Shown here: piece by piece, positions 43,820 to 47,114 of the stretch
Layout of the letters: each line of letters begins with the position of its first letter
How positions within the stretch are numbered: position 1 is the stretch's first letter
NCBI GenBank assembly: GCA_016291905.1
Contig: JAEEZS010000009.1
Location: 62,001 to 126,000 of the forward strand
Direction of reading: 5' to 3'
DNA from: Bacteroidaceae bacterium
GTDB taxonomy: Bacteria > Bacteroidota > Bacteroidia > Bacteroidales > Bacteroidaceae
Length of the DNA: 64,000 bases
The notes under the pieces: generated by a model
What the model was told of the DNA's origin: nothing
Seen by the model: the letters and a program-made list of their open reading frames with translations, nothing else
Databases searched by the model: none
Translations under genes and position numbers: made by a program

Positions 43820-43905
43820 GCCGCCAGTCTCTGCGACACCCGGGATAAGAAGTGAGCTCCTTCTTCTCACGTTTGCACGAGACATGCAAAAAACATCGAT
43901 CGATT

Positions 43906-44730
43906 ATGAGAGAGAAAACAAAGTTAAAAATCGGAGAGTTCTCAAAGATGATGCAGATTACCGTCAGGACACTGCGCTTCTATGAAGAGAAGGGACTGCT
44001 GACACCTGACGAGGTGGACGAGTGGACAGGCTACCGCTACTACAGCATCGGCCAGATGCAGAAGCTGATGGACATCCGCAACTTGCAACGGCTCGGATTC
44101 TCGCTGGATGAGATCAAGGGCTTGTATGAAGAAGACTCGCACGCCCCCAGCATCCAGCAGCTGACCGAGAAAATCATGGAAACGGAGGAACAACTACGGC
44201 AGCTGATAGCCCGCAGAAACCAATTGCTCGACTGGAGGAACTCTCGTAAAGAAATGAAGACAATGGAAAAATTCAGTATTCAGTCATTGCCCGAAATCAT
44301 CGTGGCAAGTCATCGTGAAGTCATCCCCAACTATGCCGCCATCGGCCCCATGTGTTACGAGAAGATTGGTCCGGAGATGCAGCGTTTAGGTTGCAAGTGT
44401 CCGCCTCCAGGCTATTGCTTTACTATAGAGCATAACAAGGAATATACGCCAACGGATATCGACATCGAGTATTGTGAGCAGGTGGAAGAGATGGGTGAAG
44501 ACAGTGCAATCATCCAGTTCAAGCGTCTGCCTGCTATCCCCAAGGTGCTCTGCATGAAACATATCGGTCCATACGAGCGTATGGGTGAATCTTTTGTCGA
44601 ACTCTTCAAATACATTGATGAGCATGGCTATAAGATCATAGGGCAGCATCGCACTTGCTATATCGATGGTGCCTGGAATCAGGACGACCCGGAGAAATGG
44701 CTCTCTGTCATTCAGATACCAATCGAATAA
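43906..44730 (+). CDS. MerR-family regulator with GyrI-like effector-binding domain (BmrR-like)
   Basis: With the ATG at 43906 the protein has 274 residues. The N-terminal winged helix (KIGEFSKMMQITVRTLRFYEEKGLL, then GYRYYSIGQMQKL) is followed by a dimerisation coiled coil (about residues 85-118). The C-terminal GyrI-like effector domain begins with FSIQSLPEIIVASHREVIPNYAAIGPMCYEKIG. Such proteins sense hydrophobic or cationic compounds and activate efflux genes by twisting the promoter DNA. No efflux pump is adjacent. A 54-bp longer GTG-initiated frame has no family similarity and is rejected. The composite repeat element lies 100 bp downstream. Confidence 0.87.
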   Translation: MREKTKLKIGEFSKMMQITVRTLRFYEEKGLLTPDEVDEWTGYRYYSIGQMQKLMDIRNLQRLGFSLDEIKGLYEEDSHAPSIQQLTEKIMETEEQLRQLIARRNQLLDWRNSRKEMKTMEKFSIQSLPEIIVASHREVIPNYAAIGPMCYEKIGPEMQRLGCKCPPPGYCFTIEHNKEYTPTDIDIEYCEQVEEMGEDSAIIQFKRLPAIPKVLCMKHIGPYERMGESFVELFKYIDEHGYKIIGQHRTCYIDGAWNQDDPEKWLSVIQIPIE

Positions 44731-44942
44731 TCAATCATAGGAATCAAGGGGACTGGAACTTCCATTACCCCCTTTCCCTATCCAATGGTTTATAATTCCC
44801 TTCCAGCTGTGTCAGCCTCTCCCTTTTCGCGACCCCCTCTATATATATAGTATCCCGAAAAAATCGAAAAATTACGATTTTTGCCATTTTTTTTGCACAA
44901 AATTGAAAAAAGCACTCACAGCACCTTCTCGGCAGGGGTTGG

Positions 44943-45141
44943 AAAAGTATCAGGTATCACGGTATCATGGTATCACGCAGACACCCTTGATACTTTTTAC
45001 TCCCTTTTTTGCTTTCTTTTTTCTCTTTGTATTTCTCTTTTTTCTTTGATATAAATATATAATAACATACATACAGAAATTGGTGGGGCGAAAAAGGTGG
45101 TATCACTTTTTTACCATGATACCGTGATACCTGATACTTTT
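44943..45141. repeat. Inner repeat unit 1 of the composite element
   Basis: The unit is bounded by a perfect 30-bp inverted repeat beginning AAAAGTATCAGGTATCACGG (44943-44972 and 45112-45141). GGTATCA-type words recur with 7- or 8-bp spacing. The core is pyrimidine-rich, then reads GATATAAATATATAATAAC. Confidence 0.88.
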
Positions 45142-45183
45142 TTCCCTCCCTCCAACTGAGAAGGTGCTGCAATGTGTTTGTGT

Positions 45184-45380
45184 GGTATCAGGTATCAAAG
45201 TATCACGGTATCATGCAGACACCCATGATACCCGTTTTCCTCCCTTTTTACTTTCTTTCTTCTCTTTGTATTTCTCTTTTTTCTTTGATATAAATATATA
45301 ATAACACACATACAGAAAATGGCGGCGCGAAAAAGGTGGTATCACTTTTTTACCGTGATACCGTGATACCTGATACTTTT
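45184..45380. repeat. Inner repeat unit 2 of the composite element
   Basis: This is a second copy of unit 1, shifted by 239 bp and highly similar in the core (45250-45340), with its own but less exact terminal inverted repeats of GTATCA words. Confidence 0.88.
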
Positions 45381-45716
45381 TCCGCTCCCTGCCGAGAAGG
45401 CACTGTGAATGCCATTTTGAAAAAAGTTGAAAAAAAATGGCAAAAATCGTAATTTTTCGATTTTTTCGGGATACTATATATATAGAGGGCCTAATGAAAA
45501 CAGCGCCTGCCCCCCGCGCCGCCGCCCACTTCGCTGTAAAGCTTCAGATAGTTCAGAAGCTACTCCAGAATTTCCGGAAGCTTTTTCAATAATTTCCCTT
45601 CTCTCCCGCCATCAATATATCTCCCTATTCTATCCGTAAAAAACCTCAAATCCCAGCCAGTTATGTTCAACAGATGCATCCACAACCGTTTCAACACCCC
45701 CATCCGCAGACAATTG

Positions 45717-47114
45717 CTACTTCGCTATCTCGAAAATGGTTTTCATGCCCTTGATTTTCTCGCCGCTGACGAGCGCGAGAAGCTGGCGCACCTTCGTGCG
45801 ACGGACGGCAGCATAGGCGTAGTGGTCGAGGACGTCGATGCGGCCCACGTCGTCGGCCGTGAGGTTGCCCTTCTTGTAGAGGAATCCGGCGATGTCGATG
45901 CGGTTCAACTTATCCTTCTTGCCCTTGCCGATGTAGAGCGTCTCCCAGGCGGGCGGCGTGGGACGACGGGTGATGTCGGGGAGAGGGAAGTCAGACAAGG
46001 TGTCCGTGGCTGTCAGCCACGCGGGGGGCTGCTCGGCAGGGGCGAGGATGTAGTAGCTGTTGCCCGAGGCATCCCAGCGGGCGGTACGACCGGTACGATG
46101 GATAGAGGCTTCCTCGTTGACGGGCAGGTGGTAATGAACGATGTGCTGCACCTCGGGGATGTCAAGCCCACGCGAGGCGAGGTCGGTGCTGACAAGGACG
46201 TTGACCGAGCCGTTGCGGAACTTGTAGAGGGCACGTTCGCGGAGATCCTGCTCGAGCCCTCCGTGATAGACGGCATGGACGAGGCGCTGCTCACGCAGGA
46301 AAGTGCCGATGCGCTCAACGGACTCGCGATAGCCGGCAAAGACAATAACCGGCGCGCCATCGAGGGCACAGAGCAGCCGATAGAGGGTCTGCAGCTTGTC
46401 CTTCTCAGGCGAGTGGACGAGGTAGGTGCTGATGCGTGCCTGGGCGCCACGATAGTCGAGGCGAAGGAAGCGCCGACCTTCAGCAAGCGAGACAGACGTC
46501 TGGGCCTCCCCTGCCCCTGCATCGGACGACGAGGGAGGGACGACTTCGGTAGCGGAGACGTACCAGCGACGCTCCACGTGAGGGAGACGAGCGATGAGGG
46601 TTTGCATCTCGTCCTGAAAGCCAAGCTCAAGGCACTTGTCGTACTCGTCGAGCACGAGGGTACGGACGGCTGAGGCATCGATGTTGCCCTTCTGCAGGTG
46701 GTCGTTAAGGCGTCCGGGAGTGCCGACGATGAGGGCAGGACGGACCTCGCGCAGGGTACGGTGCTCGTCCATAGCGGGGCGCCCGCCATAGACCGAGAGG
46801 GCTTTCCACGGGGTACCCATCTGCTTCCAGACGGATTCGATCTGCTGGGCGAGTTCGCGCGAGGGCACCACAACGAGGGCGGAGGGGCTTGCGGTTTGCG
46901 GTGAAGGGTTAGCGGTTAGCGGGGAGCGGTTAGCGGTTAGCGCGTCGAACAGCTGGATGAGGGGCAGCAGGTAGGCGACGGTCTTTCCACTGCCGGTGGG
47001 CGAAAGCAGGAGGATGTCGCTTGGCTCGCTGCTGCATGCCATCATGGCCTCCTGCATGGGCGTCAGCGCCTCGATGCTCAACCGCTGCAGGGCTGTTTGC
47101 TGTATCTCGTTCAT
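45717..47114 (-). CDS. DEAD-box-type RNA helicase with DEYD motif and DbpA-like RNA-binding C-terminus
   Basis: The 465-residue protein has motif I SPTGSGKT (residue 38), Ia PSRELAQQ, Ib GTPGRL, motif II VLDEYDKC (DEYD rather than DEAD), motif III SAT, and C-terminal motifs VSTDLASRGLDIP and HRTGRTAR. The last 70 residues (KDKLNRIDIAGFLYKKGNL...) resemble the DbpA RNA-binding domain, which recognises 23S rRNA. It probably helps ribosome assembly. Residues 59-79 form a repeat encoded by nine heptanucleotides between motifs I and Ia. The gene starts 6 bp after the stop of the receiver/ATP-grasp gene. Confidence 0.9.
   Translation of the reverse strand: MNEIQQTALQRLSIEALTPMQEAMMACSSEPSDILLLSPTGSGKTVAYLLPLIQLFDALTANRSPLTANPSPQTASPSALVVVPSRELAQQIESVWKQMGTPWKALSVYGGRPAMDEHRTLREVRPALIVGTPGRLNDHLQKGNIDASAVRTLVLDEYDKCLELGFQDEMQTLIARLPHVERRWYVSATEVVPPSSSDAGAGEAQTSVSLAEGRRFLRLDYRGAQARISTYLVHSPEKDKLQTLYRLLCALDGAPVIVFAGYRESVERIGTFLREQRLVHAVYHGGLEQDLRERALYKFRNGSVNVLVSTDLASRGLDIPEVQHIVHYHLPVNEEASIHRTGRTARWDASGNSYYILAPAEQPPAWLTATDTLSDFPLPDITRRPTPPAWETLYIGKGKKDKLNRIDIAGFLYKKGNLTADDVGRIDVLDHYAYAAVRRTKVRQLLALVSGEKIKGMKTIFEIAK
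46878..46940. repeat. Nine-heptad (3 x 21 bp) repeat in the helicase gene
   Basis: On the minus strand nine 7-bp words of the CTAACCG type occur in perfect register. They group into three 21-bp units encoding seven-residue repeats (LTANRSP, LTANPSP, then a degraded third). The word is related to the intergenic GGTTAAC/AGGTTAA family. The frame is intact. Confidence 0.9.

Follow-up and report, generated by a model that had tools for sequence, protein, structure and literature searches.

A doubled iteron module between two converging genes of a Bacteroidaceae genome is probably an orphan copy of the putative replication origin of BT4734-type islands

Between two converging genes, assigned by Pfam to a MerR/GyrI-like regulator and a DbpA-type DEAD-box helicase, the window (the whole stretch of 64,000 nucleotides analysed here, from the genome labelled G000) carries a 655-bp palindromic element on a contig of 269 kb (Table 1). 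Repeat comparison bore out what the first-pass annotation had described from the letters, namely exact 60-bp inverted arms around two tandem 239-bp units, opposed GTATCA-rich ends in each unit and convergence of the flanking genes. The exact identity of the arms ends there on both sides; with mismatches allowed, they reach 123 nt at 84% identity, while the two units, with a period of 238-239 bp, are 92% identical over 156 nt and 89% identical over another 47 nt. The comparison covered repeats of at least 12 bp. Each unit consists of two opposed arrays of the 7-8-bp iteron GTATCA(CG), four GTATCA facing three TGATAC, around an AT-rich core, and the arrays of unit 1 are complementary over 30 nt. 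Two further claims of that annotation needed correction: its third layer, an 18-bp word, does exist as a repeated word, but is exact only over 12 bp at 44919-44930 and 45158-45169, the copy at 45394-45405 being two mismatches off; and the feature does not stop at 45489, since homology with a relative runs on to about 45643. More precisely, positions 45176-45643 align at 78% identity to a locus of the sister genome G003 (L028), ending about 30 bp before the start codon of an HU gene. A truncated HU start at 45663 of the window (MFNRCIHNRFNT compared with MSLKCILNHNT) was considered and rejected, as its DNA alignment score of 20 was not significant, the median of the shuffles being 17 and their 95% level 22.

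Table 1. Features of the palindromic element and its flanks (window coordinates)
Feature	Positions	Strand	Remarks
MerR/GyrI-like regulator gene, flanking	43852..44730	+	Pfam
Left arm	44835..44894	-	Inverted HU-side leader (CCCTCTATATATATAGTATCCCGAAAAAATCG...); exact 60-bp inverted repeat of 45430-45489; same start base in the C33 copy
Unit 1 iteron array, GTATCA x4	44947..44977	+	Starts 44947, 44954, 44962, 44970
Unit 1 core, AT-rich and pyrimidine-rich	44994..45100	.	28% GC (window 54%); similar in relatives
Unit 1 opposed array, TGATAC x3	45117..45137	-	Starts 45117, 45125, 45132
Unit 2 iteron array, GTATCA x4	45185..45215	+	Starts 45185, 45192, 45200, 45208
Unit 2 core, AT-rich	45232..45338	.	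33% GC
Unit 2 opposed array, TGATAC x3	45356..45376	-	Starts 45356, 45364, 45371
Segment from last array to right arm	45394..45429	+	Begins GAGAAGGCACTGTGAATGC; its first 12 bp recur with two mismatches at 44919-44930 (inverted) and 45158-45169
Right arm, HU-side leader	45430..45489	+	AAAATCG/CGATTTT hairpin, TTTTTTCGGGATACTATATATATAGAGGG
Trailer	45490..45643	+	Homologous to the HU-HIG 5' leader of G003; no HU gene after it
DEAD-box helicase, DbpA type, convergent flank	45717..47114	-	Pfam; VapE-like gene with its own CACCTACC arrays at this end in G009, G016 and G017

The iteron is strongly concentrated in the element, where GTATCA/TGATAC occurs 18 times as compared with 14 times in the other 63,345 bp of the window (about 120-fold denser); 14 of the 18 sit in the four arrays and the remaining four are single copies at 44988, 45100, 45226 and 45339. 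A 25-bp word of the arm was not matched in any of 100 shuffled versions of the window. Folded as single-stranded DNA, the element reached -160 kcal/mol (z = -18.6 against 20 shuffles), a strength that follows from its repeats and is no proof of function. The idea of a long structured RNA found no support, the best Rfam matches (miRNA and rli47, at chance level) lying far below threshold; as for a promoter switch or inversion, no recombinase was seen among the genes beside the element. Compared with its relatives, the arrangement is inverted leader, module, module, leader and trailer, where the basic unit is module, leader and trailer.

In the sister genomes G003 and G016, the same module lies inside islands, between a divergent HU-HIG gene and a gene for a BT4734-primase/DUF3987-helicase. 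The order HU, module, primase-helicase, with both genes pointing outward, was observed at six loci (L177, L180, L181, L182, L195 and, in the window genome itself, L167), and Pfam identified BT4734-like_N, DUF3987, S24 and HU-HIG domains in the islands. Away from HU, two loci of G016 and one of G003 carry, in order, the module, cargo genes, an S24-peptidase gene, a sigma-70-like gene (a call below Pfam's cut-off), a small gene and a gene for a 764-789-aa protein with BT4734-like_N and DUF3987 domains, the protein being truncated on contig C5 of G003. Among the cargo genes located between the module and the replication gene are those for an NgoBV-type restriction-modification pair (L181), GmrSD (L182) and AbiH (L156), and L167 has two methyltransferases on the HU side of the module. 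To our knowledge, annotation seldom assigns a role to BT4734-like and HU-HIG genes. They are common in this family: a BT4734 match was found in 64 of 121 family genomes searched, and G000 alone has nine BT4734-like and 24 HU-HIG matches.

A scan of named genomes by means of the primase-helicase yielded 26 loci encoding its relatives, every one of them in an assembly whose title names Bacteroidales, Bacteroidaceae or Bacteroidetes; rumen, rectum or faeces also appears in several of these titles. We scored a strict module as one exact 7-mer with at least two tandem copies on each strand and five in all, around a core of 40-230 bp. By this measure, the module was present at 10 of the 26 loci and in none of 130 order-1 Markov copies; the nominal 5 of 56 among control loci were all either the window element itself (L107 in the scan) or island HU loci of its own genome (L063, L069-L071). 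In the window, the detector picked up the module at 44953-45131 with a core AT fraction of 0.69. The strict module was absent from the other 16 loci, and within G000 it was found at two of nine loci with a BT4734_N match (L167 and L172) and absent from seven. A relaxed detector allowing one mismatch was set aside in favour of the strict one; it found a module at 12 of 26 loci (gaining L176, L178, L188 and L198, losing L187 and L195), at 2 of the 37 control loci taken from real sequence, and in none of 78 Markov copies. Runs of period 7 or 8 (AATTAGG, TTAACTC) are common between genes in these genomes, for example at L156:5878-5910 and L158:11597-11675, and mislead repeat detectors.

The layout of the module is constant, while the iteron word varies from island to island: GTATCA, GTAACA, GTCGTAT, GTATCCT, TCTGACA, GGTGAAC, TAGAATG, CCGGTAA, ATTACAA and ACGAATT were found, together with GTAACCT in the window genome. 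The module lies 5' of the primase-helicase gene at nine of the ten strict loci and 3' at L183; arrays other than the central module do lie 3' of the replication gene in some islands. Among 40 loci of the wider family, hand-picked from a longer list and with open frames of 689-847 aa, the strict module was present at seven and absent from 33, as compared with 0 of 20 regions of the same genomes. Five of these seven have cores longer than 100 bp and come from G009, of the same genus, and from three other genera (G114, G117 with two, and G120), whereas L246 and L249, with cores of 41-58 bp, are doubtful. All five belong to the 16 proteins of at least 780 aa and none to the 24 shorter ones, a division seen afterwards. 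Some of the loci without the strict module are short contigs. Since most BT4734 loci lack it, the idea of the module as an origin concerns a subset of them. The window element belongs with this family on two counts, as it has the opposed arrays of one 7-8-bp iteron around an AT-rich core of 40-230 bp and is homologous to the module beside HU and primase genes.

At five loci (L181, L182, L167, L180 and L195), the central iterons recur as arrays at both outer ends of the island, in opposite orientation and spanning 6.2-10.0 kb, and L187 and L195 have one additional array further off; L183, L184, L186, L196 and L172 have the central module only. The longest run among the arrays compiled is one of 13 GTTACC iterons at L252:5230-5332 (G009, contig C46). 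L167 and its orthologue L182 represent one island at one chromosomal site, with flanks 89% and 75% identical and primase-helicases 81% identical, but their array iterons differ throughout, reading GTAACCT in 16 of 16 cases in L167 and GTATCCT in 16 of 16 in L182. Sixteen parallel differences at four places across 8-10 kb point to either one trans-acting binder or conversion between arrays, and in both cases the arrays behave as a set.

The primase-helicase is the candidate initiator of these islands. Archaeo-eukaryotic primases include BT4734-like proteins as one of their named families, and the DUF3987/VirE domains have been predicted to be helicases of mobile elements (PMC5862659). In a 22-row alignment, D80/D82, G392 K393 S394 and E472 are invariant and D474 is nearly so, residues that we interpret as the Walker A and Walker B motifs of the helicase, preceded by motif I of the primase (D80/D82). 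The structure model (mean pLDDT 84, pTM 0.53) ends in a helix-helix-helix-strand-strand pattern at residues 697-749 that resembles a winged helix. All 22 PDB matches of the model with E up to 0.001 were MCM chains; given their TM-scores of 0.19-0.27 of the query and rmsd above 11, this likeness is loose, and a profile search of PDB sequences gave no match. Relatives of the primase were absent from the viral contigs searched, and were represented by three distant unannotated records in phages and by two distant DUF3987 genes in plasmids, while in PHROGs three of the four BT4734 proteins matched primases/helicases weakly, the VapE-like one had strong helicase matches and five other proteins had no match. 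A small gene (L167:6199-6501, L181:9700-10011 and relatives) overlaps the primase-helicase gene at its start; its product, of about 100 aa and of no known family, is 75-98% identical across five islands and is a possible origin-binding partner.

Taken together, these observations are best explained, and we think probably so, if the stretch in the window is an orphan, doubled copy of the iteron/AT-rich/inverted-iteron module of Bacteroidaceae BT4734-type islands, and if this module is the putative replication origin of the intact islands. In an intact island, the primase-helicase, or the small partner encoded beside it, would bind the opposed iteron arrays, upon which the AT-rich core would melt and the fused primase and helicase would start replication, while HU and cargo genes would be transcribed outward from the same region. 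The iterons at the outer ends could mark the ends of a replicating or mobilised unit, or else regulate the outer transcripts. The likeness to a published satellite origin and the empty island site, both described below, also speak for this explanation. Against it count the many BT4734 loci that lack the strict module, the solo copies in relatives, the position 5' of the replication gene, the additional end arrays, the lack of an integrase in the ORFs scanned, the scarcity of relatives in viral, phage and plasmid records and the looseness of the MCM likeness. The suggestion in the first-pass annotation of a replication or recombination site agrees with this comparative evidence.

A different role for the same arrays, that of operators, is the strongest competitor, although we consider it unlikely. 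Here, an HU-HIG, S24 or sigma-like regulator would bind the arrays, silence the divergent HU and cargo promoters and insulate the island ends, and the copy in the window would be a leftover promoter region. The position of the module between divergent transcripts, with the HU leader on its right side, is what such a role would predict, as are the arrays just behind the S24 gene and those behind the last island gene; the concerted iteron difference suits any trans-acting binder. However, the factor common to the 26 scanned loci is the primase-helicase, on which the search was based, and profile matches (E 1e-4) to S24, sigma-like and HU proteins are missing at five module-bearing loci (L183, L184, L186, L187 and L196). 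Moreover, the layout given for satellite origins in a published description (PMC6092414) is just such an AT-rich core, of 100-140 bp, with opposed short iterons around it.

Very unlikely, in our view, is the reading of the arrays as terminal recognition sites, that is, as the transposon-like inverted ends of an integrase-free mobile element in which the internal arrays are junctions of HU and primase cassettes. The ends do lend themselves to such a reading: the left and right outer arrays pair as inverted repeats over 75 columns in L181, 51 in L182, 36 in L167 and 53 in L180, extending well past the iterons in L181, L182 and L180, and outward-facing arrays bound both the HU and the primase blocks. 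One site further allowed filled and empty states to be compared. There, the island adjoins a gene that we take, by eye, to be lipoprotein-like in G016 (the other gene names at the empty and filled site are likewise presumed), extra genes lie between the two in G003 and the right end is seen in G017, while the site is empty in G009 and G000, where the two flanking genes stand side by side; sequence that is also in the empty site of G009 stands immediately next to the right iteron array in G016 and G017. Against this reading, the islands scanned yielded neither a transposase nor a recombinase, and several islands possess the central module only. A Pfam scan found no integrase among the ORFs of L181 and of the L177/L036 island, nor among those ORFs of other islands that it covered.

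Copies of the element itself are few. Matches occurred in 6 of 61 genomes searched, two of them (G036 and G046) of 35 bp at most. Within the genus, the element is present in four of 19 genomes (G000, G003, G016 and G017). The only other locus found in G000, on contig C33 (L027), holds one full unit, a shortened second unit and an inverted left leader that begins at the same CCCTC; at one mismatch at most, the paired iteron word occurs in G000 only at these two orphan loci (seven matches). The single-unit copies that were read have neither the left arm nor a terminal inverted repeat. Four of them adjoin an HU-HIG gene (contigs C5 and C58 of G003, C18 and C59 of G016), contig C30 of G003 begins within a module on the primase side, and these copies (C5 and C30/C58; C18 and C59) lie inside larger islands; the copy on contig C11 of G003 is interrupted by the contig end. 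Three solo copies without HU or primase gene were found, followed by an SSB gene on contig C32 of G016 and by a LytTR-domain ORF on C190 of G017 and lying beside a convergent CotH gene on C126 of G017, indicating that the module may spread or persist alone. Since the window, C33 of G000 and its counterpart on C48 of G017 hold the only copies read that have the inverted left arm, the palindrome is a secondary, derived arrangement.

This distribution also bears on the proposal of the first-pass annotation that the element might be mobile, for which it had suggested a homology search for copy number, flanks and empty sites. The search did reveal copies at several sites and one empty island site, and a piece of a mobile element fits the comparative evidence, but copy number is low. 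That the module itself is a small non-autonomous, MITE-like element is highly improbable: a left arm starting at the same base in the window and in C33, and solo copies at several unrelated sites, are what it would predict, whereas the single-unit copies without terminal inverted repeat, homology running about 150 bp past the right arm, and the mere two loci in G000 and four positive genomes of 19 speak against it. An assembly artefact, a chimeric palindrome of the kind that easily arises when palindromes are misassembled in a draft (G000 has 86 contigs), is scarcely credible, as the 269-kb contig runs through the element and two further copies share the inverted leader, one of them from another assembly (G017).

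Two side observations concern the neighbourhoods of these copies. Between C33 of G000 and C48 of G017 (L032:2318-5560), a segment with the CotH gene is 98.7% identical over 3.6 kb, the adjoining upstream stretch being 88% identical between the two species; one of its edges is found at a direct repeat of 75-80 bp at the 3' end of the upstream gene, and the other near position 5559 of L032, inside the orphan element. The segment thus seems to have been transferred recently, one breakpoint falling within that element. On C126 of G017 (L034:1478-1740), a 65-bp piece comprising a TGTTACC array and GAGAAGGTGGTGTTG is tandemly repeated beside the solo module.

Returning to the window, no island genes adjoin its module. 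Between a gene that we presume by eye to be L33-like and the helicase, G009 and G016 hold other genes and the VapE-like gene with its arrays, and in G017 the same end of the helicase has arrays and a VapE gene beside it; in G000, the MerR gene, which is located elsewhere in all six relatives searched, and the orphan element stand in their place. The flanks of the element contain no cognate primase-helicase, and the 93%-complete assembly of G000 contains no close initiator, the best candidate being 42% identical over its length and belonging to the GTAACCT island. Accordingly named an orphan of its island type, the window copy consists of one HU-side half (module, leader and trailer), a tandem second module and an inverted second leader, in the slot where sister genomes carry a similar island. 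A former island was presumably lost here, and the inverted second leader presumably goes back to a head-to-head duplication. Such an element may be inert debris, or it may titrate the initiators of incoming islands. The flanking helicase shares only 71-72% identity with its syntenic relatives, compared with about 91% for the adjacent PPDK-like gene and for the mnmA-like gene.

SaPIs encode their primase and replication genes within the island, a feature shared by the islands described here. The central module also resembles the PICI origin, in which an AT-rich region has a set of short iterons on either side (PMC6092414). However, the PICI origin lies 3' of rep (PMC6092414), whereas the module mostly precedes the replication gene and often has a divergent HU gene as its neighbour; the proteins are a BT4734 primase and DUF3987; the hosts are Bacteroidales; iterons are repeated at some island ends, which is not part of that PICI description; and, unlike whole PICIs, the island ORFs scanned here lack an integrase. 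Because of these differences in position, protein families and end arrays, we file the module as origin-like and not as PICI. In the PLE satellites of Vibrio cholerae, RepA binds iterons (PMC7145576), which in PLE1 are three semi-palindromic repeats of about 30 bp, and the initiator binding domain and the origin covary between variants (PMC8263062). In contrast to this RepA_N system, the island iterons here are 7-8 bp long and the putative initiator is of another family. The V. cholerae satellite origin and initiator are attacked by an origin-cutting phage nuclease (PMC8263062), and by analogy such pressure could also drive the concerted iteron difference. The PICMI satellites of Vibrionaceae likewise have a DUF3987 primase in a small island, but are defined by an integrase, AlpA and Fis besides the primase (PMC10803314), none of which was found in the island ORFs scanned here, where the genes of the parent islands are BT4734-like primase genes with HU-HIG neighbours.

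Our literature search, covering titles and the starts of abstracts and mostly without subscription journals, returned no description of an iteron module for BT4734-like primase or HU-HIG genes and nothing pairing Bacteroidales with iterons. The association with satellite-type origins, outer arrays, defence cargo and an empty site suggests, for a subset of these genes, a role in replicating defence islands, and the concerted difference of 16 iterons makes coevolution of initiator and origin testable. The orphan copies further raise the question of whether spare origins shield a genome from related islands. In its boldest form, which we regard as quite unlikely, this would be a satellite-like class of Bacteroidales elements in which one initiator reads both a central bipartite origin and inverted ends, without an integrase and with specificity changing in concert, and in which orphan doubled origins are kept as initiator-titrating decoys, forming an iteron-based immunity or incompatibility locus. 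A second island type displays a similar habit: at the two VapE loci L153 and L154, neither of which has the strict module, though one-word arrays are present in both, CACCTACC and CACTTACC arrays lie on both sides of the VapE-like ATPase gene (L153:3553-5488 and L154:7526-9158).
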